A stretch of DNA of 64,000 nt from Botryococcus braunii (lineage: Eukaryota > Chlorophyta > Trebouxiophyceae), in contig KV908492.1 of assembly GCA_002005505.1 (NCBI GenBank), forward strand, positions 222,414 to 286,413, written 5' to 3'. Of the stretch, positions 7,377-53,065 are shown one piece after another; positions within the stretch are counted from its first letter, which is position 1, and each line of letters opens with the position of its first letter. Both the position numbers and the translations under genes were made by a program. A model generated the notes under the pieces. It saw only the letters and a program-made list of their open reading frames with translations. It did no database searches and was not told the origin of the DNA.

Positions 7377-8131
7377 GAGCACCTGCTGATGGTCAGGCCC
7401 CCTATGGCCCTTCTGCTCACAACGCTGGAGGCAGGGGGCGAGGGTCTGGACGTGGCAGGAGGCCAAAGGAGGAACTGGCGTGTCGCTTCTGCAACAGGAC
7501 GGGACATTTCTGGAGGGAGTGCCTGGATCTGAAGAGGCTGCAAGCTCTACATGGCACAATGCAAGCTGCAAGTGCGGGCCCAACTGCGTGGTGGGGCACT
7601 GGAGCTCCTCAGCAACAAGCCAGCTGGTGGGATGCTGGCCAATCCAGAGGAGGCCCTCCCGTGTCCACCTCACATGCTCCTGGATCTGTGTCCATTGTCT
7701 TCCCCTTCTTCCCAGGCTGGCATCTCCCACCACCACCTCCTCCAGGTGCTGGTGAGCCTATGTTCGTTTCGTTGAATGTGCTTACCCCTACGTCTCATGG
7801 GGCTTGCAGTACCTCGTGGCTGATAGATAGTGGTGCATCGGTGCACCTTGCAAATGATCTGTCGGTTCTACACAACCCAGTCATGCATGCCCAACCCCTC
7901 CCTCTTCATTTGGCCACTTCTGACGCCAAAGGAGGGATAGTTGCAACTGGGTCTGTGTGTTTGGTCAATGCCAGACAAGAGGTGTTTTGGCTGCATAATG
8001 TGCAGTGTGTGCCCAATCTGATTTCTGTCACAGGAGCCATTCAGGATGGAGCATCAGTCCTCACTGACAGTGCAGGTGGGTACACGACCATGAAAGGCCC
8101 AGCAGGCTGGTCGGGTCAGATAGCCAGAGAG
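7377..8131 (+). pseudogene. gag: Copia-4 gag C-terminus and protease fragment
   Basis: The plus-strand frame (open 7283-8353) shows a Gly/Pro-rich gag tail, a zinc knuckle CRFCNRTGHFWREC (C-x2-C-x4-H-x4-C) and a copia aspartic protease motif LIDSGASVHL. It is the same family as Copia-1 (compare 15243-16168, minus strand). It is truncated on the left at the junction with Copia-5 and on the right by the Copia-2 LTR, just after GQIARE. The rest of Copia-4 resumes only at the end of RT (33276), so about 3 kb corresponding to integrase and most of RT is missing. Confidence 0.88.
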
Positions 8132-9278
8132 TTTGATCTGCAAAGATCCAAAGGTGTTGTATTAATCATGAATGATGACTATACTCACAAGTATATCATC
8201 CATGTACTTAATCACTTTGACCAAGACATACATAGTCGACAGCGTCAAACTGATGAACAATTCACGTACAGCAATTGCTTCCACAGAAGTTACTCACAAC
8301 AAGTGAGAGAGAAAGAAAGCAATTCACATGAGTCCATTCAGGAGTCGGCTTAACAAGCCAAAGAGATCGAATGACTTACAAACTACTGTCGGACGAACAC
8401 ACACACTAACTAGTCTTACCTGCAAAGATCCAAAGGTGTTATATTAATCATAAATGATGACTATACTCACAAGTATATCATCCTGTGAACACACTAACAC
8501 CTTTATAATGAACTAATTAGTTCATTGCATATGATGAACCTTATCTATAAGCACCCCTCAGCAGTCACATAGCTGACTTACCATGTACTCAATCAGTTTG
8601 ACCAAGACATACATAGTCGACAGCGTCAAACTGATGAACAATTCTGCACATACCCATATTAGTCTCTGATCATCAAAACGGCACTTATGGCCGTGATCAA
8701 AAACATGACCGGCAGAGCCCCGACTTACCACGTATAGCAATTGCTTCCACAGAAGTTACTCACAACAAGTGAGAGAGGAAGAAAGCAATTCACATGAGTC
8801 CATTCAGGAGTCGGCTTAACAAGCCAAAGAGTTCGAATGACTGCCTGGTGGTCCGGGTTCTCTGGCTATCTGTACTCAGATCAGCGCGTGGGAAACGCGC
8901 TGTCCAGCACTGCTACTGGCCTTTTTCACGAACATTAGGACATGCTCAGGGTTCCTATCCACAGAATTTGGACCCTTATCCTACAGTAACACATTTATTA
9001 CCTCTAGATGCATGTCTTCCAGCCACTAAAGGCTGGAAGGTATTTACAGCCATAGAATAAATATCTCTCAATGCATTAATACTCATAGATTGATCGTTCA
9101 TAGCCATTGTCAAGATGTCTTTACCTTGAGTTAACTGCTTGGTTAACTTACAGCTAATTATTACATGTGATTGTACCTTCACACACGCACGCACGCACAC
9201 ACGTGCGCACGCACGCACGCACGTGCACGCACGCACGCACGTTAATTAACATGACATAATGAAGTACAAAACCCAACA
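8132..9278 (-). repeat. Copia-2 3' LTR
   Basis: This matches 32154-33275 and ends ...AACCCAACA at 9278, with the minus-strand PPT GCAAGGGGAAGAT beside it. The first base pair is mutated (TTTGATC for TGTGATC). It contains a spliced-form leader block (8138-8376) and an intron-containing copy (8420-8842). It also has a CACG-type microsatellite at about 9178-9243. Compared with the other LTR, the net length differences lie almost entirely in the two introns. Confidence 0.92.
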
Positions 9279-10929: not shown

Positions 10930-11630
10930 TGTAAAAGGTTATGGGCAATGGCGTATCCTGTAAGCAAGCAGACAGGTCGTAAGTTCGTGCCTCTTCAGCT
11001 ACAGTCCTTGACGACTGTCTGCTCTTTAGACACATGCAACTGCATGAACAAGACTGGCATCCTTATGTGCCCAGTATCTTTCCAAACCAGTTCCGTTACA
11101 TGTTGATCTGTCAATGAGCATCTACACACGGATAAGCTCCTGACGGCTGAAAGCAAGTACCTTCCTATACTCAATCAAGACTCCGTCCCTTAGCTGTTTG
11201 GGAGACTTGATTGTCCACTAAGATGGTTCACTTACAAACAAGCAATCAAACATGAACACATTACCAATACACACCCTGCGTCACCGCACCTGTAAGCAAG
11301 CAGACAGGTCGTAAGTTCGTGCCTCTTCAGCTACAGTCCTTGACGACTGTCTGCTCTTTAGACACATGCAACTGCATGAACAAGACTGGCATCCTTATGT
11401 GCCCAGTATCTTTCCAAACCAGTTGCTCGACTATGCGGTGATCGCAGCTTTAATAGTCCTTTCACACTAACGCGTAATCTAAATCAGATTGTACCTTATG
11501 TTCGAAATAGACCTCATCCGAACGTGTCTTGAGGTACCTTATGTGGATAGTGGACCCGTATCCTAATAATGTACATTTGAAGATCACCTAAAGCACAAGG
11601 CATTCTATAATGTATGTTCACAACTCAACA
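10930..11630 (-). repeat. Copia-1 3' LTR
   Basis: 701 bp, TGTAAAAGG...ACTCAACA on the plus strand. It is followed at 11631 by CTTCCCCTTGCCTGCATGC, the complement of the polypurine tract. It contains the two 133-bp leader repeats typical of this family. Three or so differences from 28189-28889 were seen by eye. Confidence 0.95.
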
Positions 11631-23812: not shown

Positions 23813-24832
23813 TTGGAAGGTTTGGAAAAGGAAGGTATTGAAGTCGATGATCTTTTGGAAGAGTCCGAAACGGAATTGCATCTGGCCCCATCGCCCAAAC
23901 CGACCACACCCAAAACGAAACCCAAACCCACTCCTTTGAAGACACCCTTGAAGAAAAATAAGACTAAATCCCTAATTCTACGGTTATTGAAGCGGATTGA
24001 GGCCTTGGAGGGAGAACGAGCATCCAAGCGGACGTCATCCACCACTAACGTCGTGCGTGTGCCTACACCAGCCATGTTTACAGGAAAAAGAGGAAGCTTC
24101 CAATTCTTTGCTAGTAAGGTGGAATCATATGTGAACATTTCAAATGTGTCAAGGGACAAGTGGGTGGCAGTCGCGCTGCAATGTATGGAGGAGCGACCTA
24201 CAAAGGTGTGGGGGACATACCTCAAAAGGAAGGAAAGGGAAGGAGGTCAAACAGAGCCAACATGGGAAGACTTTAAAAATTTTATGGGAAATCGATACGA
24301 CTCTACAGATTTGGTTATGGCTGCCCGGCAGAAATTAGACCATGTTTATCAAGGGCAAGAAAGCGTTGAAAGATACATAGAAAGGTTTATTTCCTTGTTG
24401 AGTGATGTAGAAACCGAACATGACATCTGCGAAAATGATAAAATATATATGTTCCTCAAAGGCCTGAATGCTCCTATTAGAGTTGCTTGCACAGTTAACC
24501 CTCAAACTGGTGTCAGGTTCACAAGCCTCGACTCATTGTGCACTTATGTGGTGCAATATGAAAGCAACTTAAAATCAGGGGGGATGCTGAGGGGACAGGA
24601 AGGAAGGAAGGTTCTCAACGTTGTGAAGAGGACTCCAACAAGCACGCCGGCATACTTTCCGGGATTCACCCAGGTGCCTGTGCTTGGAGCCGTCGGACAC
24701 AACGTTGGTGGGAAGTTAGATTCTCGGACAAGCGTCCCCTCCGAGCGCCAGTGTTATTTCTGCAAAAACTTTGGTCACGAGCAATGGCAATGTCAGGGCA
24801 AGCGGGACTACTTGCAAAGGAAGAGCAGGCTG
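23813..24832 (+). CDS. gag: Gypsy-B gag
   Basis: Same gag as Gypsy-A up to the zinc knuckle CYFCKNFGHEQWQC and CQGKRDYLQRKSR. The first deletion then fuses it out of frame to the protease-RT linker, so the frame runs on to 24988 through unrelated residues. A full-length capsid/zinc-knuckle part is retained. The upstream ATG at 23750 is offset by the A8 run at 23771-23778. Confidence 0.85.
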
Positions 24833-26308
24833 AACTGGTGGACATCACCGGGGAGGAAGCCTCAAGTGAGGCCGACCTGGCGGACACCGACAAACCTATG
24901 GACGACACCCCCGTCGTCACAAAACCCCCCAGTAGTACCGCACCTTGGAAGTGGGGACAGGAACAACAGGAAGCATTTGACAACATAAAGGAAGCTTTGG
25001 TAAGTGCCCCTATCTTAACACTCCCGGACGTACGTCGGCCATTTAAGGTAGTGTGCGATGCATGCGATTACGGCGTGGGAGCTGTGCTATTTCAAGATGG
25101 AAAGGTTTGTGCGTATTTCAGTAAAAAGTTGGGAGCAAGCGAGAGGAACTACAGTGCCACGGAACGGGAGTTATTGGCTGTAGTGTATGCTCTCACGGAA
25201 TGGAGATGTTATTTGTTAGGTAAGCCAGTAACGGTGGTGACGGATCACAAGTGCAACACCTTCTTGGGTCAACAGGTGGGGCTTAGTCCTCGGAGGGCTC
25301 GGTGGGCCGAGCGCCTGCAGGAGTTTGAGATTGAATGGGTATGGGAACCGGGCAAGACCAACATTGCGGATCCGCTCTCCAGGTGTCACTTCACTCAACA
25401 CCCTGGACCTGGGGGGAGGGACAATGGGGCTGCTGTGGCCGGGGCTGCCCTCCGGCGCAAGCGTCGGCGCACCAGTCCGGACTCCCTCACCCCCTCCAGC
25501 CGGGATGTCGAGGGTACCCTCACAGCTCGGGTCCGCAAGGTCCCCAAGGTCACGCTCCCGGGGCCCGCTCACGAGACCCCAAGCTCCCTCGGCACGATGG
25601 AGCAAATCGGGTTGGCCAGCCCGAGTGAGCTTACCCGCGAGACCGATGGGTACGAATCCCTACTTGGCAAACTTGAGAAGGCTTACACATACGATCCGTG
25701 GTTGGCAGCGCGTGCGAATAGAAGGAAGGTTAGTCTAAAGGGAGGCTTTTGGGAGAGGAATGGACGGAAATATGTTCCTGCATTGTTTGAGGAAAAGGAA
25801 AGATGGGGAACTTGTCGTGGAGAACCTACGACGTGGAATTTTGGAAGCTTTACATGATCCACCTCATGTTGGTCACCCTGGAGTAACTCGCATGTACGAG
25901 CTTGTAACAAGGGAATGGTATTGGCCGGGAATGTATGAGGATGTCAAAGCCTATGTTGCTCATTGTGACTCTTGTCAACGAGTCAAGGCTCGGAATACTT
26001 TGCCTGCTGGTCTTCTTCACCCCTTACAAATACCAGCAAGGAAGTGGCAAAGTGTGTCTATGGACTTTATTACTAACCTCCCAAAGACCCCAAGTGGACA
26101 TGATGCGATTTGGGTTGTTGTGGATAGGCTTAGCAAGTGTGCTCATTTTGCTGCTACAACCATGAATGCTGATGCTTATACTCTAGCACAATTGTTAAGG
26201 ACATGGGTGTGGATGTATCGTGGATCCCGGGTGTGGTGGCATTGTGGATCACAAGCCACTCACTGGCGAACGCGGCCGCACTCTGGACGATCCGAACGAG
26301 CCAAATGA
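24833..26308 (+). pseudogene. pol: Gypsy-B RNase H, linker and truncated integrase
   Basis: After the second deletion the frame enters at APWKWGQEQQEAF and reads RNase H (VCDACDYGVG, TERELLAV, TDHKCNTF), then the linker to 25857. Integrase HHCC and first Asp follow in a shifted frame (25760-26308). Second Asp and Glu are absent, as in Gypsy-A. RT motifs are absent altogether. No product beyond gag is likely functional. Confidence 0.88.
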
Positions 26309-26987
26309 GGATAGCTGGAAATAACTTGCACAGGTCACGCGTTGTTGCCACAAGAAAGTGGAAGAGTACAGAGAGAGTCACGGGCTCCCGCCATTGCCTC
26401 CCAAGGGCACGACTCCTAGGGTCCACCCTTAGGGTCCCGTCGACCGGTTGGCCCTCCTTGGAGGGGTCTCTCTGTATGGCCATATGGACTTTGGATAGGC
26501 TAGGGTAAGGCTGCCTTACCCGGTAGGGTTGACCATGGGTCCCTTACCTGGATAGATTTTTGTGCACATTAGGTGTATGGCCTTTTCACTTCACTACCAC
26601 ACCTGATCAATATGGTGCAATACTGGCGTAATACTGGACTATATGTGGAAATTGGACTCCCCTTGGACTCTGGACTTTTGGACATCTGGACTTTTAGCTC
26701 TGCCCTTGTGTCTCATTTTGGCTGTTCATCATGTGGACTTTCGTTTTTCTCTCAGTGTTTTGTCTTTTGTTCTGTTAGTCATGCCTGATCCTTGTTCTTA
26801 TTGCATTATGGTGGGGACCCCGATACGCAGCATTCGGCTGGGGTCTGGCAACACGGGAGGCGGGTTGCCCGTAGGTCTAAGTCTGAGTCTCCGCATGTTG
26901 GAAGGTCTTGTTCCTTTGTTTGTCTTGTCTGTTTGTTGTTGCGCTCTGCCTTCTGCGCGGGGACGCACAGGAATAAGGGGGGGAGTA
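26309..26987 (+). other. Gypsy-B 3' noncoding region and PPT
   Basis: Same as Gypsy-A 16623-17301 in reverse. Ends with the polypurine tract AATAAGGGGGGGAGTA at 26972-26987 directly before the 3' LTR. No coding frame supported. Confidence 0.8.
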
Positions 26988-27436
26988 TGTAGTGAGATGC
27001 CGCGTCAGCGCGACGCGTCTCACGTAGGATGTGCGCGTAGTTCATGTTTCTTCGTGCCCTTTGGGATACGAGTAGATCTCGTTGTCCTTGTGTGTAGGAA
27101 AATGACTGTAATATCCTAGTGGGTCTCCTCTCGTCATCCATATCGTTATGCTCGCGAGAGCATCTCGTAGAGGGACGACGTAGCCGGATCCGCGCATAGG
27201 TGGACTAGGAACTCGGGTGGTTATCATTGTCTTTGGGTTTTCTGTTACAAGGGAGGCATCTAGAAATATCTTTATTGGTCATAATATATTGTTCTTTGGA
27301 GACTCGGACGACCTGCGTGAGGAGGGCTGCGAACTTGTAACGGATTGGAACTTCGATTTCTACCTTCGGTGTCACCCTTGCCTGATACCCTTGCTTAGCT
27401 TGTTATAAATCTTAGTTCACGTCTCACTTCGTTAAA
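26988..27436 (+). repeat. Gypsy-B 3' LTR
   Basis: 449 bp, ends TTCGTTAAA, then the TSD CAGAC. Comparison with the 5' LTR (followed by TTGGTATCGG) fixes the end at AAA, not CA. Confidence 0.95.
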
Positions 27437-28188: not shown

Positions 28189-28889
28189 TGTAAAAGGTTA
28201 TGGGCAATGGCGTATCCTGTAAGCAAGCAGACAGGTCGTAAGTTCGTGCCTCTTCAGCTACAGTCCTTGACGACTGTCTGCTCTTTAGACACATGCAACT
28301 GCATGAACAAGACTGGCATCCTTATGTGCCCAGTATCTTTCCAAACCAGTTCCGTTACATGTTGATCTGTCAATGAGCATCTACACACGGATAAGCTCCT
28401 GACGGCTGAAAGCAAGTACCTTCCTATACTCAATCAAGACTCCGTCCCTTAGCTGTTTGGGAGATTTGATTGTCCACTAAGATGGTTCACTTACAAACAA
28501 GCAATCAAACATGAACACATTACCAATACACACCCTGCGTCACCGCACCTGTAAGCAAGCAGACAGGTCGTAAGTTCGTGCCTCTTCAGCTACAGTCCTT
28601 GACGACTGTCTGCTCTTTAGACACATGCAACTGCATGAACAAGACTGGCATCCTTATGTGCCCAGTATCTTTCCAAACCAGTTGCTCGACTGTGCGGTGA
28701 TCGCAGCTTTAATAGTCCTTTCACACTAACGCGTAATCTAAATCAGATTGTACCTTATGTTCGAAATAGACCTCATCCGAACGTGTCTTGAGGTACCTTA
28801 TGTGGATAGTGGACCCGTATCCTAATAATGTACATTTGAAGATCACCTAAAGCACAAGGCATTCTAGAATGTATGTTCACAACTCAACA
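28189..28889 (-). repeat. Copia-1 5' LTR
   Basis: 701 bp partner of 10930-11630, followed by TSD TTTAC at 28890-28894. It contains the two 133-bp leader repeats. Identity with the other LTR is about 99.5% by eye. Confidence 0.95.
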
Positions 28890-32153: not shown

Positions 32154-33275
32154 TGTGATCTGCAAAGATCCAAAGGTGTTATATTAATCATAAATGGTGA
32201 CTATACTCACAAGTATATCATCCATGTACTATCAGTTTGACCAAGACATACATAGTCCACAGCGTCAAACTGATGAACAATTCACGTACAGCAATTGCTT
32301 CCACAGAAGTTACTCACAACAAGTGAGAGAGAAAGAAAGCAATTCGCATGAGTCCATTCAGGAGTCGGCTTAACAAGCCAAAGAGATCGAATGACTTACA
32401 AACTACTGTCGGACGAACACACACACTAACTAGTCTTACCTGCAAAGATCCAAAGGTGTTATATTAATCATAAATGATGACTATACTCACAAGTATATCA
32501 TCCTGTGAACACACTAACACCTTTAGTTCATTGCATATGATGAACCTTATCTATAAGCACCCCTCAGCCGTCACATAGCTGACTTACCATGTACTTAATC
32601 AGTTTGACCAAGACATACATAGTCGACAGCGTCAAACTGATGAACAATTCTGCAACATTCACATACCCATATTAGTCTCTGATCATCAAAACGGCACTTA
32701 TGGCCGTGATCAAAAACATGACCGGCAGAGCCCCGACTTACCACGTATAGCAATTGCTTCCACAGAAGTTACTCACAACAAGTGAGAGAGAAAGAAAGCA
32801 ATTCACATGAGTCCATTCAGGAGTCGGCTTAACAAGCCAAAGAGATCGAATGACTGCCTGGTGGTCCGGGTTCTCTGGCTATCTGTACTCAGATCAGCGC
32901 GTGGGAAACGCGCTGTCCAGCACTGCTACTGGCCTTTTTCACGAACATTAGGACATGCTCAAGGTTCCTATCCACAGAATTTGGACCCTTATCCTACAGT
33001 AACACATTTATTAACTCTAGATGCATGTCTTCCAGCCACTAAAGGCTGGAAGGTATTTACAGCCATAGAATAAATATCTTTCAATGCATTAATACTCATA
33101 GATTGATCGTTCATAGCCATTGTCAAGATGTCTTTACCTTGAGTTAACTGCTTGGTTAACTTACAGCTAATGATTACATGTGATTGTACCTTCACGCATG
33201 CACGCACGCACGCACGTGCACGCACGCACGCACGCACGTTAATTAACATGACATAATGAAGTACAAAACCCAACA
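32154..33275 (-). repeat. Copia-2 5' LTR with intron-bearing and spliced leader copies
   Basis: 1122 bp. In element sense it ends CTTTGCAGATCACA, followed by the PBS TGGTTCTGGGCCCACATCC (complement of 32134-32152). Block A (32440-32855) carries two introns, 32650-32741 (GTAAGTCGG...GTTGCAG) and 32503-32587 (GTAAGTCAG...TTCACAG). Block A' (32160-32396) is the same sequence without them. Block A ends CTTTGCAG|GTAAGA, a further donor; A' ends CTTTGCAG|ATCA, an acceptor. A CACG microsatellite sits at 33190-33239. Confidence 0.9.
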
Positions 33276-33867: not shown

Positions 33868-34565
33868 TGTTGAGTTCTGAACATTATTATTGAATGCCTT
33901 GTGCTTTAAGTGATCTTCAGGTGTGCACTATTAGGATATGGGTCCATTAAGAACATAAGGTACCTTAAGACACGTTAGGTTGTGGACGGTTTCGAACATA
34001 AGGTACAATCTGATCTAGATTACGCGTTAGTGTGAAAGGACTCTTAAAGCTGCAATCACCGCATAGTCGAGCAACTGGTTTGGAAAGATACTTGGCACAT
34101 AAGGATGCCAGTCTTGTTCATGCAGTTGCATGTGTCTAAAGAGCAAACAGCCGTCGAAGACTGTAGCTGGAGAGGCACGAACTTACGACCTGTCTGCTTG
34201 CTTACAGGTGCGGTGACGCAGGGTGTGTATTGGTAATGTGTTCATGTTTGATTGCTTGTTTGTAAGTGAACCATCTTTGTGTACAATCAAGTCTCCCAAA
34301 CAGCTAAGGGACGGAGTCTTGATTGAGTATAGGAAGGTACTTGCTTTCAGCCGTCAGGAGCTTACCCGTGTGTAGATGCTCATTGATAGATCAACGTGTA
34401 ACGGAACTGGTTTGGAAAGATACTGGGCACATAAGGATGCCAGTCTTGTTCATGCAGTTGCATGTGTCTAAAGAGCAGACAGCCGTCGAGGACTGTAGCT
34501 GGAGAGGCACGAACTTACGATCTGTCTGCTTGCTTACAGGTGCGGTGACGATGGGTGTGTATTGG
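33868..34565 (+). repeat. Copia-4 3' LTR, first part (interrupted by Copia-3)
   Basis: Starts TGTTGAG after the PPT. Copia-1 family, but contains three 133-bp leader repeats instead of two: 34075-34207, 34407-34539 and 53239-53371. The first two are followed by GTGCGG. Copia-3 interrupts it at ATTGG (34561-34565, repeated at 53061-53065). Total LTR is about 1030 bp against 701 bp in Copia-1. Confidence 0.9.
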
Positions 34566-35666
34566 TGTGGATCCTGCAAGATCCAGTTTAGATTTACTAT
34601 GATAAATCACAGATAAAAAGACACACACATGTGTCATCCAGATATGTGAATACTGTCAACATCAACACCATCACAAGGTGGAAGCAGTTTAACAAGTCAG
34701 GCTGATCTTCTCTTGATCTGAAACATGCATACACGATGCTAAAACACAGACAAGAGTGAATGTAGATCAGACTGTGAGTCAGGGTTTTTGACAACAAGAC
34801 GTTTCAAAAACACTACGGAATGACTTACAACGGGTAGTATGCGACACTGGTCTATCTAACGATTACCTGCAAGATCCAGTTTAGATTTACTATGATAAAT
34901 CACAGATAAAAAGACACACACATGTGTCATCCTGTGCATATTAAATCCATTAGTGTCTTGCTGGTAACCATCACACGATAACTTACTTGCATGCGAACGT
35001 GCAGCATAAACTGCTTACCAGATATGTGAATACTGTCAACATCAACACCATCACAAGGTGGAAGCAGTTTAACAAGTCTGCACATTAGCCATAACATTAT
35101 TAGTATTAAGATAAATAAACAACACTTACAGCTGTTCAACTAACGTCAGCGACGAACATAAGCCTCACCAGGCTGATCTTCTCTTGATCTGAAACATGCA
35201 TACACGATGCTAAAACACAGACAAGAGTGAATGTAGATCAGACTGTGAGTCAGGGTTTTTGACAACAAGACGTTTCAAAAACACTACGGAATGACTGCTT
35301 GAGACTTCGTTCAGTCGCTCCTAGTATTATCAGATCAGCGCATTGAATTGCGCTGTTCTGCCCCTTTTTTACGAGTTCGTAACAAAGTTGAGATTCAGAG
35401 CCTTGGAAACTGGCCCTTATCTCAATTGAGTTTATCACGTTATTACCAATTAGGATAAACTCAATTTTAATAGCCACAAACAGCAGGAAAGACTTTCTCC
35501 ACCATGTTCTTATATGCTTTATACGTTACTACTTGTGGCCATAAAGACCACTGGCTGTTCATCAAGGATTTTCCCTTGAGTTGAGTACGTGGTCAACTAT
35601 ACAGCTAATTTATTCAGGTTAGAATTGTTATCTTTGGATTGTCCTGACAGTACACAAATTCCAACA
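34566..35666 (-). repeat. Copia-3 3' LTR with intron-bearing and spliced leader copies
   Basis: 1101 bp. Block A' (34574-34825, 252 bp) equals block A (34867-35296, 430 bp) minus two segments: 35078-35168 (GTGAGGC...GTGCAG, 91 bp) and 34932-35018 (GTAAGCAG...GCACAG, 87 bp). 430-252 = 178 = 91+87. Both segments are GT-AG with CTAAT-like branch sites. Block A ends CTTGCAG|GTAATC and A' ends CTTGCAG|GATCCACA. The PPT complement is at 35667-35680. Confidence 0.95.
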
Positions 35667-35704
35667 ATCTTCCCATTGTACTTTCAGGACATCCCAACAT
35701 TCAG

Positions 35705-38700
35705 TTACTGCATTCCCAACATGTTACGATGCCTTTCAAACACAGCAGATGCTAGTGGTTTTGTGAACATGTCAGCTACATTTTCAGTAGTTGGCACATA
35801 TGTAGGATCAATCTGACCCCAAACCACCTTCTCTCGTGCATGATGGTAACTCACACTGATGTGTTTAGTGTGTTTAGAGACCATGTGATTTCTCAGGTTT
35901 GACACACACCCCTGATTATCACAATACATGGTTATACATGTGATCTCTTCTCCCAACTCACAGAGCATACTTCCCACCCACATGGCTTCTTTCACTGCTG
36001 CACTCACAGCAATGTATTCAGACTCCACAGTGGATGTTGCTATGGAAGTTTGCCTCTTACTTGACCAGGATACAGCAGATCCGTTCAATAGAAACACAAA
36101 CCCAGTTGTGGATTTTCTACTGTCCAGATCACCTGCAAAATCTGCATCCACAAAGCATACCAGTTCATTTTTATTTGATCCAGTATACTTAATTCCCATG
36201 TATTTGGTGCAGTTGAGGTACCTCAGTACTCTAATTGCTCCATTCCAATGGGATGTTGTTGGTTGTCCTCTAAATCTGCTCAACATCCCCACAGCTTGAG
36301 AAATATCAGGCCTTGTAGTTGTTGACAAATACTGTAGTGAACCAATTAATTCTAAATACCTGTGACCTTCTGGTAAGGGAATTCCTGATCCAATCTGCTC
36401 ACCAGTCATCCCTTTGGGAGGTTCAGGCATTTGGGTAGGCAAGAAGGAACCTGACATGGGTGTATCAACCTCCTTCCCCTGATCAGGCAGCCCATATTCT
36501 TCCACCAATTTCTCAATTTTTAGGACATTGGTCATTTTCAGAGTATGTGAGGATTCATTTATCTTGATTTCACAACCCAAAAATGACTTTATCTCACCAA
36601 GATCGTGAATTGAGAATATACTAGTCAGCTGTTGCTTAACACACTGAATGCATTCCTCATCCTCACTCACAATCAGCAAATCATCAACATATACCAACAA
36701 GTATACGTATGACTTGAATGACTCCTTGTTAATGAAGAGCGCTGGATCACTTTGACAGGCTATAAACCCAAATTTTCCAAGCTCTTCAACCAGATACTTG
36801 TGCCATGCACGTGGTGCTTGCTTCAGACCATACAAAGATCTTAGTAGCTTGCACACAACATTAGAATCGCCATTAAAGAAACAGGGAGGTTGGGCTACAT
36901 ACACTTCCTCATCCAGTGTTCCATTTAGGAATGCTGTTTTCACATCAACTTGGTGAACTTTCCACCCATTTGACGTAGCCAAATTTAACAGCACCCTCCT
37001 AGATGTGTGTGTACTTACTGGAGCGAAGGTCTCAAAGTAGTCAACACCTGGCCTTTGCTTGCAACCTTGTGCCACCAGTCTCGCCTTAAATCTGACAATA
37101 TCACCAAAACTGTCAGTCTTTAGAGCATAGACCCATTTTAAAGGAATAATTTTGGCATCAGAGGGTCTCTCACAATATTCAAACGTTTCATGAGAATCTA
37201 TAGAATCCATCTCTTCATTCATGGCTTCTAACCAATATGGCCACTGTGGGGATTTTTTTGCCTCCCACCAGTCCTCTGGAACCTTGATATTCTTGGATGA
37301 TAATTTCACTTGCTCTTGTGCACCATTTTGATTTGGGGAAATTATTTCTGATGCATATGTGACTGGCGCTTCCCCAATGTGGTATGTACCCGGAACATAC
37401 CTGTCTGGTTCTGCCAACGTTTGCCTCAGTTCGTATCTACCCCCACCATTCCTGGCACCACCTTGCATTTCCTCAAGTGAGTCACTGGTTACAGCAGGAG
37501 GTTGATTATCTGATTCTTCACCTGAACTGTCTGATCCATGTGACACTTGATTTTGCATGTTCCCAGTCCCCACTACTCCTTCCCCTGGAGCTCCTGGACC
37601 AGATAACCCACTCGGACCACTCTCTTCCGCTGTTCCCAAGCCTCTCAGGATATCATTCATCCTGTGCATGACTTCCAAGTTAGCTGGGAGAGTTGGGGCA
37701 ACACCCCTTCCAGCTTCCCTGTTTAATTCCAGTGCACCAGTGAGGTCTACCGGTACAAAATCCCAATCATCCCCATCATCAGTGCATGGAACTTGATCAA
37801 AATTTATCTCCTGGGAGACTTCAGCAGTGAGAGAATTACTGGGAGTGAGAGCATGAATTCCTAATTTGTCTTCAAAGAATTTGACGTTCTTTGACACCTT
37901 TACCTTGTTCCCCACCTTAACTCTGTAGGCCTTTGATGCTGGCTCATATCCCACAAACATCCCAGGCTCAGATCTGGCTGAAAAGGCTGACTGATCCTTG
38001 TCTGGTATTTTGATAAACGCCAAACATCCCCACACTCTCAAGTAGTGTACTGATGGTTTCCTCCCAAACAGCAGTTCATAGGGAGTGGCTGTCTTCCCTT
38101 TTACTGCTCTGAGATTTAACAACCTAACAGCTGTTGGAAGTGCATCTGCCCACATGCTCTGTGGAGCTTTTGCCTGCAAAAGAAGCATTCTAACTTTCTC
38201 CTTCAAGGATCTGTTAAAACGTTCTGCTCTTCCATTTTGTTGAGGGGTATAAGGAGCAGACGTTTCATGTCTGATCCCTTTAGACTGAAAAAAGTCAAGC
38301 AAGTCAGCATTTACAAACTCACTTCCCCTATCAGACCTAACCACCTTTACATTGTGATTAGTCTGATTTTCCAAGTACAGGATGATTGTTTTAACAGCAC
38401 CACCCACCTGGGACTTGGAAGTCAATGCTACGGATTCACCAGCTCTAGAGTAATCATCTAGTACTGTGAGCATGTAGCGTTCACCCTCAGCTCCTGGGAT
38501 TGGTAGCTCACCAATCACATCCAAGTGCAACAGCTGAAGACGTTCAGTTGCTGATACTGGGGATCTTTGGTAGCTCTCTTTAGTCTGCTTGCCCATCACA
38601 CACACATCACACAGCGAATGACCATGTAAGCAAGGAGACAGAGATGTAGCTATTCCCTTCACCATATCTTCAGTTTGCAGTCGTTCCAGGTTTTTACTTC

Positions 38701-40105
38701 CTGGATGTCCTAAGCGTTGATGCCACAAATCATATTCAGAGCATTTGTGAGCATATCCAACACTATGTGAGAGCTGGATTTTGCAGCACAAGCAGTAAAC
38801 GAAATACAGTCCTCTTTCTTTTCTGACTTCAGAGATGAATTGTGAGGCATTACTGTACATACTGATAATCTCTCCATGTGAATTGTTTGTAAACTGAATC
38901 CCATCTGTTACTGCACTTGAGACCGACAACAAATTTTCAATTGCAGTAGGTACATATTCAACATTTTTAAGTTTACACATGTTCCCCATTTCATCTACTA
39001 AGCACACAGAACCACATGCCTTGCGTTGTGCAACATGTTCACCAGTTGCCAAATTTAGACCCTTTGGCTGTGTATACCAGTGAATGTTTTGCATTAGTCT
39101 AACATCATTGCATATGTGTGTTGAGGCTCCTGAGTCTACCACCCATCTAGAGAATGGATTACCTGAGTCAGAAGAGTCCCCCAATGCAATACCTCCAACT
39201 GGATTGGCTTGATTCTTGCGTGCTGAAATGAGGGCAGCCCTTTTTTCTTTCTCAGCTATAAGTTTTGGACACACGTTTCTGGTATGTCCATCTTCCAAGC
39301 AGTGCCAGCAGCCCCTGAAGTTGTCAGGCAGATCTTCTGGCATCCCTGGTGGCCTGGATCCTGGAGCGTTCCTGGGGCGAGGGGGACCTCTGACTGGATT
39401 GATAAGATTGACTGATGGTGAGGGGGCCTTAAATTCATCAATTCCAAGCAACCTTGAACATGCCTGAATATTGAGTGTGACCTTGTCCTCATCCTCACCA
39501 AGACAGGAAGTGTAGAGATTTGATTTGGCATGGTCAAAATGCTTGGGCAAACCCTCTACAATCCCCATTTTTAGCCTACCATCAGAGCATGGGTGATTAT
39601 TGGCTTGTAGACCTCTTGCAATCCTGAACTTCCTGGCAACATATGAATGGTACTCCTGACCCTCATCGATACGCCCATAGTCCAAGACCTTGGACCATTT
39701 CCTCATTAACTCCTCATTGTGGCCACCAGTGAACTTGCGCAGCAGCCAGTCATAGGCCTGCTTTGCGTTTGGCATGTCCAATGCCCTGTCCACCCAAACG
39801 TCAGGAATTTTCTCAGTTAGAAGACTCATAGCAAGAGAGTCTCCTGCTGTATTAGGATGCTCTTCGTCTAGACACATCTTAATACGTTTGCTATTAGCAA
39901 CATTCAGAACATCCTTTTGCCATCTAAAACCGTTTTCACAATCCAGGTCTAACGCCTGAACCAGTTTTAGATTGGTATAAACAGGGTTTGTCTGATCTAT
40001 GCTATTACCTGACTGGGCAGACTGACTAGTATTGCCAGCTGAGGGTTGATTTACTTGTGGATCAGATGGATTACCTGGGGTAGGGTTCGTAGCCAATGTT
40101 GCCAT
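35705..40105 (-). CDS. gag-pol: Copia-3 gag-pol polyprotein (complete)
   Basis: One 1466-residue frame, the normal length for Ty1/copia. Gag 40-230; zinc knuckle C266-x2-C-x4-H274-x4-C279; aspartic protease D324 in VVDSGAST. Pre-integrase zinc site H462/H467 and C499/C502. Integrase triad D529, D592, E628 (D-x62-D-x35-E). Acidic Ser-rich linker 780-940; RT with YVDD 1139-1142; RNase H D1320, SEY about 1362, D1396; C-terminus ADMFTKPLA. All catalytic residues present. It makes particle, protease, integrase and RT/RNase H; acts in cytoplasmic particles, integrates in the nucleus. Start: ATG 40105, first Met before the gag core. Confidence 0.97.
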   Translation of the reverse strand: MATLATNPTPGNPSDPQVNQPSAGNTSQSAQSGNSIDQTNPVYTNLKLVQALDLDCENGFRWQKDVLNVANSKRIKMCLDEEHPNTAGDSLAMSLLTEKIPDVWVDRALDMPNAKQAYDWLLRKFTGGHNEELMRKWSKVLDYGRIDEGQEYHSYVARKFRIARGLQANNHPCSDGRLKMGIVEGLPKHFDHAKSNLYTSCLGEDEDKVTLNIQACSRLLGIDEFKAPSPSVNLINPVRGPPRPRNAPGSRPPGMPEDLPDNFRGCWHCLEDGHTRNVCPKLIAEKEKRAALISARKNQANPVGGIALGDSSDSGNPFSRWVVDSGASTHICNDVRLMQNIHWYTQPKGLNLATGEHVAQRKACGSVCLVDEMGNMCKLKNVEYVPTAIENLLSVSSAVTDGIQFTNNSHGEIISMYSNASQFISEVRKERGLYFVYCLCCKIQLSHSVGYAHKCSEYDLWHQRLGHPGSKNLERLQTEDMVKGIATSLSPCLHGHSLCDVCVMGKQTKESYQRSPVSATERLQLLHLDVIGELPIPGAEGERYMLTVLDDYSRAGESVALTSKSQVGGAVKTIILYLENQTNHNVKVVRSDRGSEFVNADLLDFFQSKGIRHETSAPYTPQQNGRAERFNRSLKEKVRMLLLQAKAPQSMWADALPTAVRLLNLRAVKGKTATPYELLFGRKPSVHYLRVWGCLAFIKIPDKDQSAFSARSEPGMFVGYEPASKAYRVKVGNKVKVSKNVKFFEDKLGIHALTPSNSLTAEVSQEINFDQVPCTDDGDDWDFVPVDLTGALELNREAGRGVAPTLPANLEVMHRMNDILRGLGTAEESGPSGLSGPGAPGEGVVGTGNMQNQVSHGSDSSGEESDNQPPAVTSDSLEEMQGGARNGGGRYELRQTLAEPDRYVPGTYHIGEAPVTYASEIISPNQNGAQEQVKLSSKNIKVPEDWWEAKKSPQWPYWLEAMNEEMDSIDSHETFEYCERPSDAKIIPLKWVYALKTDSFGDIVRFKARLVAQGCKQRPGVDYFETFAPVSTHTSRRVLLNLATSNGWKVHQVDVKTAFLNGTLDEEVYVAQPPCFFNGDSNVVCKLLRSLYGLKQAPRAWHKYLVEELGKFGFIACQSDPALFINKESFKSYVYLLVYVDDLLIVSEDEECIQCVKQQLTSIFSIHDLGEIKSFLGCEIKINESSHTLKMTNVLKIEKLVEEYGLPDQGKEVDTPMSGSFLPTQMPEPPKGMTGEQIGSGIPLPEGHRYLELIGSLQYLSTTTRPDISQAVGMLSRFRGQPTTSHWNGAIRVLRYLNCTKYMGIKYTGSNKNELVCFVDADFAGDLDSRKSTTGFVFLLNGSAVSWSSKRQTSIATSTVESEYIAVSAAVKEAMWVGSMLCELGEEITCITMYCDNQGCVSNLRNHMVSKHTKHISVSYHHAREKVVWGQIDPTYVPTTENVADMFTKPLASAVFERHRNMLGMQ

Positions 40106-40194
40106 GCCTGGGAATGTAACACCTGCACCTTTGCTCTGTACCGTCTTCTAAATCATTCACAATTGAGGCGTTCGTCTCAGTGTCACGTCCCTTT
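40106..40194 (-). other. Copia-3 leader between Gypsy-C and gag
   Basis: 89 bp of Copia-3 leader left downstream of Gypsy-C. It includes TGTCACGTCCCTT at 40181-40193, a 13-bp match to the Gypsy-C PPT-side sequence at 41707-41719. No ORF supported. Confidence 0.6.
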
Positions 40195-42997: not shown

Positions 42998-45900
42998 CTA
43001 GCAAAGTTCAGGCCGGTACTTTCCAATACAAAATATAGTCTCTTTCCATTTGACTCCTAATGAATTTTCGATAATTACGTGGTTATCATCTTGATACTTG
43101 ACGAAAGTGAAGGGCCCAAAGAACGGTGGGGCCAGCTTTTGCTTCTTTCTTGCCTTAATAGCCACAAGATCTCCTGGCTGTAGATTTCGGAGCTCGTCGT
43201 CGATGTCTTGCTCCTTCTTAGTGGGCTGCATACGCCTCTTATAAGCACGCTTCTGGCGTTCTTGGGCCTTGTTTATGTTTGCTGTAGCTTCTTCATGACG
43301 CCATTGTCGCGGTGGCAAGTGGGCCTGCCCAATTTCTATTTCAACTTCTTGGGGCTCTCTGACGTGGGTGCGGTTCTCAATTGGAAGCACAGCCGCTCTT
43401 CCATACAACATCTGGAAGGGGCTGAACTTAGTAGATTGTTGGGGGGTGTTACGATACCCCAGAAGGATCTCAGGAAGCTTCTGTTCCCATGTGGTAGGGC
43501 TGGCTAAAGCGGCTTGCCCTAATTTCTCCTTCAAGGTCCCATGAAACCTCTCTACCAAGCCATTGGCTTGCGGGTGGTAGGGGCTTGTCTTGCGGACCTC
43601 AATACAACATTTCTCCATTAGTGCTTGGAATGGCCCTTGCCACTCCTGTCCATTATCTGTTACTACGATCTGCGGGCACCCGTGACGGGCAATGATTTCC
43701 TCCATGAAGAATGCGGCTGTGGTGGAAGCTTCCTTGTTAGGGATCACTTTTGCCTCCACCCATTTGGTTAAGTAGTCGATTGCGGTGGCGATGTACAACT
43801 TCCTTGTGTCTCCAGGCGGGCTAAATGGACCAGTGAGGTCTAAGCCGATCATATGAAAAACTCCTTGTACTGCAATAGGGCTCAATTCTACGGGTTTGGT
43901 GAGTTGAATATTACGAAGCTGGCATCCGGGGCAGTGCTGCACGTACAGTCGAATATCGTTGGACATACCAGCCCAAAAGAAACGCTCCTTTACCAAGTGC
44001 TGGGTCCGTACAACTCCATAGTGTCCTGTTTCGTCGTGTAGTTCCTTGATTATCTCCAGGCGGTCTTCATACCATGGTACAACTCTGGGTGGAAATGCTT
44101 TAGTGGCCTTTCGCATAAGCTGGCAAGTGCGGGTCCTCCAATCGAAGGGGAATTCCTCCGTTGCAAAATAGTAATTGTGAGACCGGCGGGCAATTCTTTT
44201 GTTTTCTTTGCGGCTACGCCCCGGCTGATGTCGTCGTCCCGCAGCAAGATAATCCAAAACGTCTTCATCATCCACTATGTCTCTGGTAGGGATGGCATCC
44301 TCGAATACGTCGCAATAAGGGCAGAGCCAGGGGCCACGGGGCACTTTTAAAAATGCCGGGTCCAAGCAATCCATGTGGTAACCAGCATCACACCGGTCAC
44401 ACAACAACATGGTTTCTTCATCATCTCTGCCCATGCACACTTGACAGGGCACATCCTGTAGTGGGGCTGGTTGGCGGTAGCGTTCTATGACGGACAATCC
44501 TTGAACTTCTGGACTAGCAAAAGGGCTAGGAAGAGGCTCGCGAGGTCGCGGCAAGGTACTGAGTGATAGTGTCAGTGGGCTGTCATGTGCATTTTCTCTC
44601 CGGGAGTCGGCGGCGAAGTCCCGAAAGGCAACTTGGTGCATGTCTCTTAAGTCAACACGATTCTCCTCTTGTGTAGCAATATTGTTAGCCTCCCCATCTA
44701 AGGAGGGAGCGGTTATGCAAGGTGGCTGCTCCTCATCTTCATTCGGCGGCGGTACGTTTTCTTTGCCCATTAGCAAAGTGAAACAGCAGTGAGCTGGCAC
44801 TTCTTCAATCTCCATTTCCATCTGTGGGGTCTGTCGTAAGCGCGAGAGGGAGTCTACGTTCCCGTGTAACGATCCGGAGCGGTGTACAATGGTAAAGTCA
44901 TATTCTTGCAGCTCGATAGCGTAACGGGCTAATTTCCCTGAAAGGTTGCGCGTGGTGAGTAACCACTTCAAGGCTTTGTGGTCGGTGACGATTGTGAAAT
45001 GAACTCCATAGAGATAAGGACGAAATAGCTTCACAGCCCACACTATGGCGAGGAGCTCTCCATCTGTGGGGGCGTAGTTAAGTTCAGCCCCTTGTAGGGT
45101 TTTGCTGGCGTAGGCGATCACATGGTCCCCGTCTTCATGCTCTTGTCCCAGTATGGCAGCGGCGGCTCCAGGCTGCCAATCTGTGTAGAGGGTAAACTCC
45201 TTACTGAAATTCGGATAGCGTAGAAGCGGCGCGTCGGTCAACATTTGCTTGATGGCTTGGAAGGCAGCCTGGCACTCCGGGGTCCAATTAAAGGCCACCC
45301 CCTTCTTGGTCAGTTTGGTTAACGGACATGATACTGCAGCCATGTTTGGCAAGAACCTCCTGTAGTAATTGGCGAGGCCCAAGAAGGATCTGACCTCTGT
45401 CACTGTTATCGGCGGTGCGGCATTTAAAACGGCTTCAACTTTTGAGGGGTTAGGTCTTACTCCTTGCTGCGTTATGATATATCCAAGATACAGTACTTCG
45501 TCGGCGAAGAGCTCACATTTCTGAGGGTTAGCCTTGAAGCCAACCGATCGGAAGCGGTCCAGTACTATCTTCAGGTGGGCGATGTGTTCTTCAAATGTAG
45601 AGCTGTAAATGAGGCAATCATCTAAGTAGATGACACAACATTTTCCAATTAAGTCGGCGAGCAGAGTATTAACAAATCTTTGTAAGGTTGCGGGCGCGTT
45701 ACGTAATCCAAAGGGCATGGAAACAAATTCATATAATCCTTGCTTGGTGATGAAAGCAGTCTTGTGGCGGTCTTCGGGGGCAACTGGAATCAACCAAAAT
45801 GCTGATTTGCAGTCTATCTTGCTCATGTAGGCCACTCCTTGGCCAAGGGAGTCCAAAGTGTCGTCGATGCGTGGCATCGGATAGTTGTCTCTTGTTGTGA

Positions 45901-48900
45901 TTGCATTCAGCGGTCTGTAGTCAATACAAAAGCGGACTGATCCATCAGGCTTCGGTACTAAAACGGGTGAGCTGGACCATGGGGAACTTGAAGGGGTGAT
46001 AACACCTGCCTTCAGCATCTTCCCCACTTCCTCCTCTATTATATGGTCTTCTGATCTTGATAGGCGGTAAGGTCGGGTCTTGATAGCGGCGGCGTCTCCA
46101 GTGTCTATCCTATGGTGCATTAGAGTGGTACGTTGCTGCGTAATGCCGGGGGAAAACACATCCCTGTACTCCATAACAAGTCCAAGGGCGCGCTTGCGCT
46201 CTTCGGGTAAAATTGCGGTCCCCAGGGGAACCTCTTCCGGCTCAAGGTGGTATGTCTCTTCTTCAATTATTTGGATGTCTGGCAATTTCTGTAGGCCAGG
46301 GTCTTCAGTCAAGTTGGGTGCAGGTGTCTTCACAATCATTACCGGCCAACGAGTAGGCCCCACACGCATGCGAGAAAAGCTGGGGGATCGTCCCGGGGCT
46401 GTGAACAGCTGCACTCCTGGAGGATATTGTCGAACGATTTGGAATTTCTCCATCACTATCGGAAACCATGTGGCTTCAGGCCACCAGGGTAAAACAAGGA
46501 CGGCTGACGTCGTGGTTGGGCTGCTGTCATAACATGTGAGGCAGTGCTGCACAATCTCCATTGCTTTTGAAAAAGGTGGGTTGCAGTAAATGTTCTTGTG
46601 GGTCCAATCTTGCTTCAAACAGTCTTGCTGGGGTGTCCAAAAGTAAGGCAATTGAGAGTTGCGGCCTTCCTGATCGCAGCAAGCGTCAAGGTCAAATGGG
46701 CCGAATTGCTCCTCAATGTCTTTGAATATATTCTTTTCTAGCATCCAATCTTCGGTGTTACTCGTTGAAGGCGGCGAGAGAGATGGTCCCTCTGCAAGGG
46801 TGAGGTCGGCGGTGGTGGAATTTAAAAAGCCTACTTGCATTGCTTGTGGCTCCTCAATAAGGTCAGGGTATTCTTCCACAGATGATGAACTGGCAGTCTC
46901 TCCACTACTGACTTCTTCTTCGCTTGAATCCTCGGGCGCAGAGGTGTCAGAGGCGCTCTCGTCGAAATAAATTACTTCTGGCAGTGCTGGTACCTCTGGT
47001 CCCTCCGGGTCTCCCAGGTTCTCAACGGGAGCCCGCATAACACAATAACGATTAAAAGTCTTATCAGAGGGCAGTACTGTTATAGGGACTTTCCCAATGA
47101 GGTTAGGGTCTATTTTGTATGACATTTCTGACTTGGCAAAGCTGATTTCTGCGTGGGCTTGCGTAAGCCAATCGGTACCCAGGAGTACATCGTAGTTCGT
47201 CGCTCCACTTACAAAAACGTCAATTGGGAATATCAATCCATCAACACCTACTGGTAGCTTTCTAATTATGCCCCATGGGGCAGACATGTTGCCATCAGCA
47301 CATGAATACTTAAGTCTACAAGGCTCGATCTGGTTAAGCATGCCCAGTTGTCTAGCTGCAGATTGCGATATCATGGTATTGGTTGCTCCTGTGTCGATAA
47401 TTCCTTCCTCAAAGATAGTATTGTTAAGAATAATAGGGACTGTGGCTACAGTGGTGCTGATCGGGTTGCGTTGCAGATGCTGTTGGACTCGCGGCGCCTC
47501 GGGTGTATCGCTGGCTGAGGGGCTCTCGGAAGTGTCACTAGAGATTACTACAAGCTCTGCCTCCGCAGCTCTTGGCGGGGTTGAAGTGGTTTGCTTGCTT
47601 CGCTGGAACTGTTGGCGGGACGCATGTAGCTCTTGGATGGATCTTTGAAATTCCTCCTCACTAATATGATTCAAGTAGGATTGTACTGTCAGCTTCATAG
47701 GTAGCCCTTTAATTTGTTGGATTGGCTCGCTAGAAGGCGCTGGCACAACTGGGGGTCTTCGGTACGCCGGCCGGGGAGGATCTGGAAGTGGTGGCAGTCC
47801 CCCTAAGTCGACTTGCGGGCGCAGCGCAGGTGCCCTCCTAGGAAAAGCAGGTACTGGGGCTGGCGTAGGTGGTGCAGCAGCTGAAGGATTATTTACTGGT
47901 GCTGAAGGTTCATTAGGCCCTGGGGCAGCTGGCCTATTTGAAGATCTGGGGTCCACAGTGGTGTTTTGCACATTGTTAGGCCGGCGGCGTAGCAATGGCT
48001 GATCCAATTCAGGTGGATTTTCGGCTGGTCTTTTGGTGGCATAGACGGGGAATGGGTCAGTAAACCCATCATACATCATCCTTACTTGGGGCTGTTCCTC
48101 CTCGGCTGGGTCCTCATGAAACTGAGTAAAATTAGCGGCGGGCATGGGCCTCTGTAATTCTGCAATTTGAATTCTGAGTCTCTCCATTTCTCTGGTAAGC
48201 GTATCTATATCGGTTGCGGGTGGCGGAAGAGGTGCCTCCCTAGGTGGGTTAGCTGGTGCAATCTGTCTTGGCGGTGCGGCTGGTTGCGGCTGATTACGCC
48301 TCTCGGGGAAATCTCGCTGACGCGGCCAGTTTCTATTTTCTCTGTTATCTCTGTTGTTCTCCCTTTGATTTTGCTGCTGCGGCGCGCGTGGCGCTCGCTG
48401 ATCCACATTGTCAATCGGGCGGCGAGTCCAAGGCTCACTTCTCTCGCGTGCTGGTACTTCTGTGTTTTGATTAACGTACATACCTCCTAATGGTGCATGC
48501 CCAAATGTCTGTTCATAGTTTGCAGCCAAACGTATTATGTCGGCTAACGCTCCATTGCCGGGGTAGGTCATCTGTACTCGCTCCCTAAGATGGGGAACTA
48601 AGCCTTTCACAAATAACTGGGTCACCATCCTGGGTGGCAGAGAGTTCTGCAAGTAACCCACTAATTTCCTGTATCTGTCAGCGTAGCTGCGAACGGTCTC
48701 ATTTGACAATTGTGCACATGTGTCTAACTTTAACATAAGGGTGTCTTCATCAAGGCCAAATCGTTCAAGAAAGGCCTCTTTACAGTCATCCCAGTCATGT
48801 ATATCATCTTGATTTGCGCGGAACCATGTGTAAGCCTCCTCGCGCATGGCATGCTTAACAAAACGTAAAACCCGATCACCCACTACTTGGTTGATCTCAA

Positions 48901-51940: not shown

Positions 51941-51958
51941 GGCGTGGGCCCATAACCA
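51941..51958 (-). promoter_or_regulatory. Copia-3 half-tRNA primer-binding site
   Basis: Element sense TGGTTATGGGCCCACGCC, one base after the LTR end. It is complementary to an initiator tRNA-Met anticodon arm (GGGCCCAUAACC), not to a tRNA 3' end. Confidence 0.8.
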
Positions 51959-51959
51959 T

Positions 51960-53060
51960 TGTGGATCCTGCAAGATCCAGTTTAGATTTACTATGATAAA
52001 TCACAGATAAAAAGACACACACATGTGTCATCCAGATATGTGAATACTGTCAACATCAACACCATCACAAGGTGGAAGCAGTTTAACAAGTCAGGCTGAT
52101 CTTCTCTTGATCTGAAACATGCATACACGATGCTAAAACACAGACAAGAGTGAATGTAGATCAGACTGTGAGTCAGGGTTTTTGACAACAAGACGTTTCA
52201 AAAACACTACGGAATGACTTACAACGGGTAGTATGCGACACTGGTCTATCTAACGATTACCTGCAAGATCCAGTTTAGATTTACTATGATAAATCACAGA
52301 TAAAAAGACACACACATGTGTCATCCTGTGCATATTAAATCCATTAGTGTCTTGCTGGTAACCATCACACGATAACTTACTTGCATGCGAACGTGCAGCA
52401 TAAACTGCTTACCAGATATGTGAATACTGTCAACATCAACACCATCACAAGGTGGAAGCAGTTTAACAAGTCTGCACATTAGCCATAACATTATTAGTAT
52501 TAAGATAAATAAACAACACTTACAGCTGTTCAACTAACGTCAACGACGAACATAAGCCTCACCAGGCTGATCTTCTCTTGATCTGAAACATGCATACACG
52601 ATGCTAAAACACAGACAAGAGTGAATGTAGATCAGACTGTGAGTCAGGGTTTTTGACAACAAGACGTTTCAAAAACACTACGGAATGACTGCTTGAGACT
52701 TCGTTCAGTCGCTCCTAGTATTATCAGATCAGCGCGTTGAATTGCGCTGTTCTGCCCCTTTTTTACGAGTTCGTAACAAAGTTGAGATTCAGAGCCTTGG
52801 AAACTGGCCCTTATCTCAATTGAGTTTATCACGTTATTACCAATTAGGATAAACTCAATTTTAATAGCCACAAACAGCAGGAAAGACTTTCTCCACCATG
52901 TTCTTATATGCTTTATACGTTACTACTTGTGGCCATAAAGACCACTGGCTGTTCATCAAGGATTTTCCCTTGAGTTGAGTACGTGGTCAACTATACAGCT
53001 AATTTATTCAGGTTAGAATTGTTATCTTTGGATTGTCCTGACAGTACACAAATTCCAACA
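51960..53060 (-). repeat. Copia-3 5' LTR
   Basis: 1101 bp. Block A' 51968-52219 and block A 52261-52690 with introns 52472-52562 and 52326-52412, exactly as in the 3' LTR (offset 17,394). Two differences from the 3' copy were seen. TSD ATTGG follows at 53061-53065. Confidence 0.95.
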
Positions 53061-53065
53061 ATTGG

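Follow-up and report, generated by a model that had tools for sequence, protein, structure and literature searches.

A leader with introns and its exactly spliced copy in the LTRs of Botryococcus braunii Copia elements

Introduction

Drosophila copia and Volvox Osser are Ty1/copia LTR retrotransposons (Pseudoviridae), a class in which the integrase precedes the reverse transcriptase domain RVT_2, the LTRs run from TG to CA and insertion is marked by 5-bp target site duplications (TSDs). Drosophila copia is primed by a half of the initiator methionine tRNA. To our knowledge each known LTR has one copy of the terminal redundancy R. The loss of introns through a spliced RNA is the textbook sign of retrotransposition. 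In HIV-1, U1 at the major splice donor masks the poly(A) signal of the 5′ LTR, and HTLV-1 and foamy viruses have splice donors in R. In LTR elements of the Ogre/EVADE type, splicing of the element body yields a subgenomic RNA, and it is the unspliced form that serves as template. RNA of Ogre/EVADE-type elements (PMC12786077) and of BARE (PMC3735527) is processed by the host spliceosome. Penelope-like elements keep introns and have partial tandem repeats (pLTRs) (PMC3846280, PMC11167929); this retention has been explained by antisense or unspliced templates, not by renewal of a spliced duplicate.

Here we describe a Copia element on the minus strand of a 64,000-nucleotide stretch of the Botryococcus braunii genome (contig KV908492.1, positions 222,414 to 286,413), referred to below as the window. 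The element is like Ty1/copia elements in its order of domains, LTR ends and TSDs, and like Drosophila copia in a primer binding site (PBS) that matches a tRNA-Met, in this case its anticodon arm. It is unlike them in that R is duplicated, with an upstream copy that has introns and a downstream copy that is the spliced form of the upstream one. The host spliceosome would use its introns, as in Ogre, EVADE, BARE and Cer1, but these introns are found in the LTR leader, and in contrast to Ogre/EVADE the spliced RNA would have to be the template. Penelope-like elements are of another enzyme class, and a Penelope-like identity (Penelope-type reverse transcriptase and GIY-YIG, with neither integrase nor PBS) was ruled out by the integrase, RVT_2 and PBS found here. 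As in HIV-1, HTLV-1 and foamy viruses, the 5′ poly(A) signal could be suppressed by a nearby splice donor; the difference is that in the present element the putative signal is itself part of an intron, so that splicing would remove it. Among open-licence papers we found no LTR that combines an intron-bearing block with its spliced copy, so that while the class of the element is known, a description of its LTR organisation and replication step was not found in that literature.

Results

Anatomy of the window element

The element, of the family we call F1, has two LTRs that are alike at 1098 of 1100 compared positions (offset 17394), the large gap between them being due to a Gypsy element nested inside. 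The borders of blocks and introns were set by hand on the sequence.

51960..53062, minus strand: 5′ LTR, with A and A′ blocks as in the 3′ LTR
51944..51957, minus strand: primer binding site GGTTATGGGCCCAC, 2 nt past the 5′ LTR
35705..40147, minus strand: Copia pol ORF, 1480 codons open, with gag-pre-integrase, rve, SH3 and RVT_2 domains
34566..35668, minus strand: 3′ LTR, TGTTGGAAT...GATCCACA, TG..CA, TSD CCAAT
35169..35296, minus strand: exon 1 of block A, 128 nt, transcription start predicted at or near 35296
35078..35168, minus strand: intron 1, 91 nt, GTGAGG...GTGCAG
35019..35077, minus strand: exon 2 of block A, 59 nt
34932..35018, minus strand: intron 2, 87 nt, GTAAGC...GCACAG
34867..34931, minus strand: exon 3 of block A, 65 nt
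34574..34866, minus strand: putative intron 3, 293 nt, GTAATC...TTGCAG, holding the spacer and A′
34826..34866, minus strand: spacer in the middle of the LTR, 41 nt, TGTA at its end
34825..34829, minus strand: TGTAA at the border of spacer and A′, putative chlorophyte poly(A) signal
34574..34825, minus strand: block A′, 252 nt, exactly spliced copy of A
34566..34573, minus strand: LTR end GATCCACA, 8 nt

Domains, LTR ends, TSD and PBS identify the element as Ty1/copia. In the 1480-residue ORF rve occupies residues 535–635 and RVT_2 residues 987–1231, CCAAT flanks the element at both ends, and the PBS is complementary to the anticodon arm of a tRNA-Met(CAT) gene in the same genome. The 5-bp flanks also match in 8 of 16 LTR pairs (C164, C193, C44, C610, C264, C428, C261 and C35), the remaining eight being truncated, ambiguous or not true pairs. 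Among the 120 matches listed of 6294, the nearest protein relatives of a piece of the reverse transcriptase (77%) are metagenomic, and the two best-scoring named pol relatives come from the green alga Micractinium. Searches of this piece against viral contigs and genome contigs, together with an alignment against viral contigs, gave no relatives outside this genome.

Within each LTR of the window element, block A (35296–34867 in the 3′ LTR, 430 nt) becomes identical to block A′ (34825–34574, 252 nt) at 252 of 252 nt once two GT–AG introns are taken out, the exons adding up as 128 + 59 + 65. An earlier note had claimed that the blocks differ only by segments of 87 and 91 bp, and this holds, with segment sizes and junction positions correct on recomputation. 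It had given the LTR as 34566..35666; the start stands, whereas the other end, judged by TG..CA, reaches 35668. The donor of intron 3 (GTAATC) follows directly after A and its acceptor (TTGCAG) is the end of A′, just before GATCCACA. Splicing of intron 3 would thus place exon 3 directly before the LTR end, and the product would be A′ itself. Chance can be excluded as the source of this arrangement, since the two internal gaps sit exactly on GT–AG borders with CTAAT branch-like motifs, and since the same match of gaps and borders recurs in dozens of other LTRs.

By eye, the end of A′ and the LTR end may form a short hairpin around the acceptor (34566–34586). Possible hairpins of this kind are GGATC-TTGCAG-GATCC in F1, GGGTT-GCAG-AACCC in L111 and GATC-TTTGCA-GATC in F2, the stems differing between families.

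Families that share the design

The 176-Mb genome searched has many copies of the design. Of 74 F1 stretches (L009–L082), 58 were complete in A, spacer and A′, and 16 were incomplete or otherwise structured; three of the 58 were set aside for an extra A block, leaving 55 LTRs for analysis. The first family search scored 40 of 163 candidates. Further families were represented in the window itself.

32160..32855, minus strand: blocks of an F2 LTR (WIN32), with A at 32855–32440 (three exons), intron 3 at 32439–32160 and A′ at 32396–32160
8126..8842, minus strand: second F2 LTR in the window (L083), same design
10957..11424, minus strand: F4 LTR, with A at 11424–11289, A′ at 11092–10957 and no internal intron
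28216..28683, minus strand: partner F4 LTR, 691 of 694 positions identical across the LTR

F2 has the same three-intron design as F1 in a largely different sequence, and A and A′ differ at four positions in the first of its two window LTRs and at seven in the second. The design was present in all 28 LTRs of the F2 set, which comprises 27 F2 LTRs, both window copies included, and the F2-like L113. A search with the PBS pattern, allowing one mismatch, gave 145 matches in the genome (76 and 69 on the two strands). Eight further LTRs anchored on an exact PBS, picked by hand and not met before, all have A and A′; three of them (L111, L112 and L116) form family F3, with one internal intron of 86–87 nt and a terminal one. 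F4 has the terminal intron only, its A ending CTTACAG|GTGCGG and its A′ CTTACAG|GATACG, with the two blocks identical at 136 of 136 positions; it is very abundant, and 40 of 1274 first-look candidates were scored. The Gypsy LTRs at 40195 and 49915 had no A/A′-like internal repeat in a repeat scan.

Sequence comparison thus confirms the design in four LTR families, with three introns in F1, three in F2, two in F3 and one in F4. The intron-bearing leader with an exactly spliced copy, first noticed in the window element, is confirmed and is wider than had been stated.

A and A′ change together

The two blocks differ by a mean of 2.8 nt within a copy of F1, whereas the A′ blocks of different copies differ by 26.1 nt (n = 55), and 15 of the 55 LTRs have no A–A′ difference at all. 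The within-copy differences sum to 154, against at least 945 in 20,000 random pairings. With roughly one LTR per element (n = 44, 11 of the 55 having been dropped by hand) the sum is 146, against at least 726 in 100,000 random pairings, and the within-copy and between-copy differences for exons 1, 2 and 3 are 1.5 versus 9.3%, 1.1 versus 13.7% and 1.2 versus 9.5%. Across 57 informative columns, 932 of 956 minor-state cells hold the same base in A and A′. The pairing is not perfectly clean, however, since in 17 of the 55 copies the A′ of another copy is nearer to A than its own A′.

The other families behave similarly. L113 has no A–A′ mismatch, although A′ varies by up to 75 sites across the F2 set. 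In F3, A′ equals spliced A at 201 of 201 positions in both L111 and L116, two LTRs separated by 33 differing sites and 4 gap columns; in L112, which has a one-base length difference in exon 1, gapped comparison gives 99 and 100%. The two blocks thus share a long history of joint divergence. Had the duplication happened just once and recently, A and A′ would be identical through their young age, and the window element taken alone would fit this. Such a reading has next to no probability given that A′ has diverged at up to 51 sites in F1, up to 75 in the F2 set and 33 between two F3 copies, with A following. Chance or simple duplication was rejected on the exact borders and on the within-copy versus between-copy counts, and a reading with no renewal was rejected on the covariation of A and A′ in F1, F2 and F3.

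The differences that do separate A from A′ have a distribution of their own. Of the states found in A′, 143 are restricted to one or two copies; 37 of these recur in the A of exactly those copies, the others being mostly one-sided, as expected from private decay. The 154 discordant F1 cells fall into 144 patterns, of which 10 are shared by two copies and 134 occur in a single one; as nearly all are unique, few if any A–A′ differences seem to be inherited. The F2 set has 49 discordant cells, gaps counted, in 42 patterns. One of the F2 patterns seen twice is common to L086 and L087. These LTRs are separated by 6 kb and may belong to a single element, in which case a few A–A′ differences would predate insertion.

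In the 15 of 16 LTR pairs that have A–A′ counts, pooled A–A′ divergence is 0.81% and LTR–LTR divergence 0.93%, with a Spearman correlation of 0.79 (p 0.0005) that becomes 0.87 without C308 and C43, two pairs that are probably not genuine. Among six pairs scored as TSD-confirmed the correlation is 0.39 and not significant; a five-pair subset gives 0.89, but leaves out two confirmed pairs and is not relied on. Since A–A′ divergence tracks LTR–LTR divergence overall, correction seems to halt at integration, with old copies decaying privately.

Ordinary gene conversion in chromosomal DNA could also keep the blocks alike if a spliced leader had given rise to A′ a single time. Repeats commonly undergo conversion, and the blocks are close direct repeats with exons of 59–128 nt. 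It would nevertheless have to act on three exons separately, never moving an intron into A′ or out of A, and to homogenise the 59-nt exon 2 as well as exon 1. Old copies, moreover, keep unrepaired private A–A′ differences in step with their LTR–LTR divergence, and we consider conversion an improbable account.

Lineage mutations in both blocks, private decay and the tracking of age instead point to a reset of A′ to spliced A at replication, and together they indicate that A′ is rewritten from spliced RNA whenever an element is copied. As A′ used as a template cannot yield an intron-bearing A, we infer that information flows from A to A′ through spliced RNA, and little else fits. The earlier proposal that A′ is rebuilt in each cycle from spliced A is supported in that the blocks co-vary by lineage while within-copy differences are nearly all private. 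A comparison of A and A′ exons across genomic copies, which the earlier note had suggested as a check, found concerted identity, and no random divergence of A′ from spliced A of a kind that would refute renewal.

Splice signals and a putative poly(A) signal

The three donors are intact in 55, 55 and 55 of the 55 F1 LTRs and the three acceptors in 55, 54 and 54. Intron 1 has the donor GTRAG and the acceptor CAG throughout (55/55 each), and introns 2 and 3 keep the acceptor AG in 54 of 55 each. Of the 28 LTRs in the F2 set, 28, 27 and 28 retain GT at the three donors, and 28 and 27 retain AG at acceptors 1 and 2.

TGTAA spans the border of spacer and A′ in 53 of 55 F1 LTRs and lies within 30 nt upstream of A in none of the 55. 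It is also found at the start of A′ in F2, L113 and L116 (F3), and in F4 it ends 3 nt before A′; L111 and L112 (F3) have TGTAG instead. Some LTRs have the motif elsewhere too: intron 1 of the window element contains it, as do U3 of F2 and the spacer of F4. In studied chlorophytes other than Pyramimonas, no pentamer is more frequent around the cleavage site than UGUAA, which is present in approximately 60% of sequences, and near-upstream elements generally lie 15–20 nt ahead of cleavage (PMC1868727). On this basis TGTAA at the start of A′ is a putative chlorophyte poly(A) signal, and such a signal would explain why strong-stop cDNA lands on A′. Two comparisons within this host gave negative results: the stretches downstream of two rbcS stop codons (466 and 507 nt) contained no TGTAA, and genomic A15 runs had no excess of TGTAA upstream (38 and 226 on the two strands, against 33 and 315 for the reversed pattern). 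The rbcS-like gene is in pieces, with four matches on one contig, and one of its exons is nearest, among PDB entries, to small subunits of plant and green-algal type; together with the Micractinium relatives of pol, this makes a chlorophyte host likely.

The order of the signals also bears on where the RNA starts. Unspliced genomic RNA might begin at A′, with A an upstream relic and template switching between co-packaged RNAs keeping the two alike. Such a transcript would have the same sequence as a spliced transcript from A, and template switching between repeats is a normal retroelement process. A start at A′ would, however, leave unexplained both how exons 2 and 3 of an intron-bearing A keep pace with A′ and why the splice sites of A are conserved (donors 55, 55 and 55, acceptors 55, 54 and 54 of 55), and TGTAA precedes A′, not A. 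We consider a start at A′ about as improbable as conversion.

Proposed replication cycle

We consider it highly probable that RNA is made from A, that its spliced leader renews A′ and that the 3′ LTR preserves the intron-bearing A. We infer the start site, the splicing and the poly(A) site. In this split-R cycle the terminal redundancy R of these Ty1/copia-type elements would be divided between two genomic copies. The genomic RNA would start in the 5′ LTR, with the first base of A or close to it, and splicing would remove introns 1 and 2 as well as intron 3, which includes TGTAA and all of A′. In the mature leader, exons 1, 2 and 3 would then be followed by the last 8 nt of the LTR and by the primer binding site. 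Directly seen behind the splicing step are the exact splice borders, their conservation and the intron-free A′.

At the 3′ LTR, the position of the motif suggests that the RNA is cleaved approximately 10–20 nt inside A′, downstream of TGTAA, so that its 3′ end would read U3, A with introns, spacer and the start of A′. The A block of the 3′ LTR has the same splice sites, and under the model introns 1 and 2 must escape splicing there. A tRNA-Met would prime strong-stop cDNA on the spliced leader, as the observed complementarity suggests; by analogy with Drosophila copia this may be the initiator tRNA, with its 5′ half as primer. The 3′ end of the strong-stop cDNA, which corresponds to the start of A, would pair with the start of A′ at the 3′ end of the RNA and be extended across the spacer, the intron-bearing A and U3. 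The daughter A′ would in this way come from the spliced A of the parental 5′ LTR, and the daughter A with its introns from the parental 3′ LTR. As an outcome, the introns would survive retrotransposition and the poly(A) signal of the 5′ LTR would be hidden within an intron.

Aberrant LTR forms

Several F1 LTRs depart from the standard order. Collapsed LTRs of the form U3–A′–U5 are L056, L065, L075 and both LTRs of one element, L064/L073; L065 is flanked on both sides by CCGCA and the L064/L073 element by GCCAC. TGTAA is absent from four collapsed LTRs tested, the fifth, L075, having one approximately 650 nt before its end. Strong-stop cDNA landing on A rather than A′ would give U3–A′–U5. The solo LTR L054, with CTTCC on both sides, has the form U3–A–U5, keeping introns 1 and 2 and missing exactly intron 3. 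L033, L044 and L074 have two A blocks. The element C261 (L040/L044), flanked by the TSD AAAAG at both ends, combines a 5′ LTR that has a single A block with a 3′ LTR that has two; C228 (L024/L033), a pair without matching TSDs, may be a second element of this kind. Apart from the extra block the LTRs of C261 differ at 1 of 1094 positions and those of C228 at 26 of 1077. The combination of a two-A 3′ LTR with a one-A 5′ LTR in C261 is not an outcome of the plain cycle.

Collapsed, intron-3-less and double-A LTRs agree with predicted by-products of the proposed cycle. Recombination between A and A′ could make the same forms, so that they agree with the cycle without proving it, and collapsed and double-A LTRs, as expected products of recombining repeats, are a point in favour of gene conversion.

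Other features of the window

The Gypsy element nested within the F1 element has a gag-pol ORF of 2001 residues (42998–49003, minus strand) that matches Dam adenine methyltransferase PF05869 (residues 750–854), a PHD finger (1520–1564), reverse transcriptase, RNase H and integrase. The F1 element is itself inserted in an F4-like stretch of about three 332-bp units, 34073–34565 joined to 53061–53398 on the plus strand; as GTGCGG follows the first two blocks, this may be a double-A F4 LTR. Between 16491 and 27119 Gypsy-like ORFs lie on both strands in mirrored order. They include gag ORFs at 21100–22296 (minus, 398 residues) and 23762–24988 (plus, 408 residues), ORFs of 189 residues each at 17302–17871 (minus) and 25739–26308 (plus), and ORFs of 170 residues each at 16491–17003 (minus) and 26607–27119 (plus). 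A tandem pair of 189-nt repeats, 94% alike with a spacing of 204, occupies 6670–7062.

Discussion

An algal Copia lineage has probably evolved a split redundancy, in which the copy on the promoter side keeps its spliceosomal introns, each cycle rewrites the copy on the poly(A) side from spliced RNA of the element itself, and splicing hides the upstream poly(A) signal. Introns would persist in a segment that is copied from spliced RNA because the landing copy is overwritten instead. If this is true, it would be a new solution to the two-LTR problem, in which the same sequence both starts and ends the RNA, and splicing would become part of the reverse transcription cycle. The paired blocks would allow the splice, start and poly(A) sites of silent elements to be read from genomic DNA, and next to every leader the genome would carry the spliced form as DNA, under continuous renewal.
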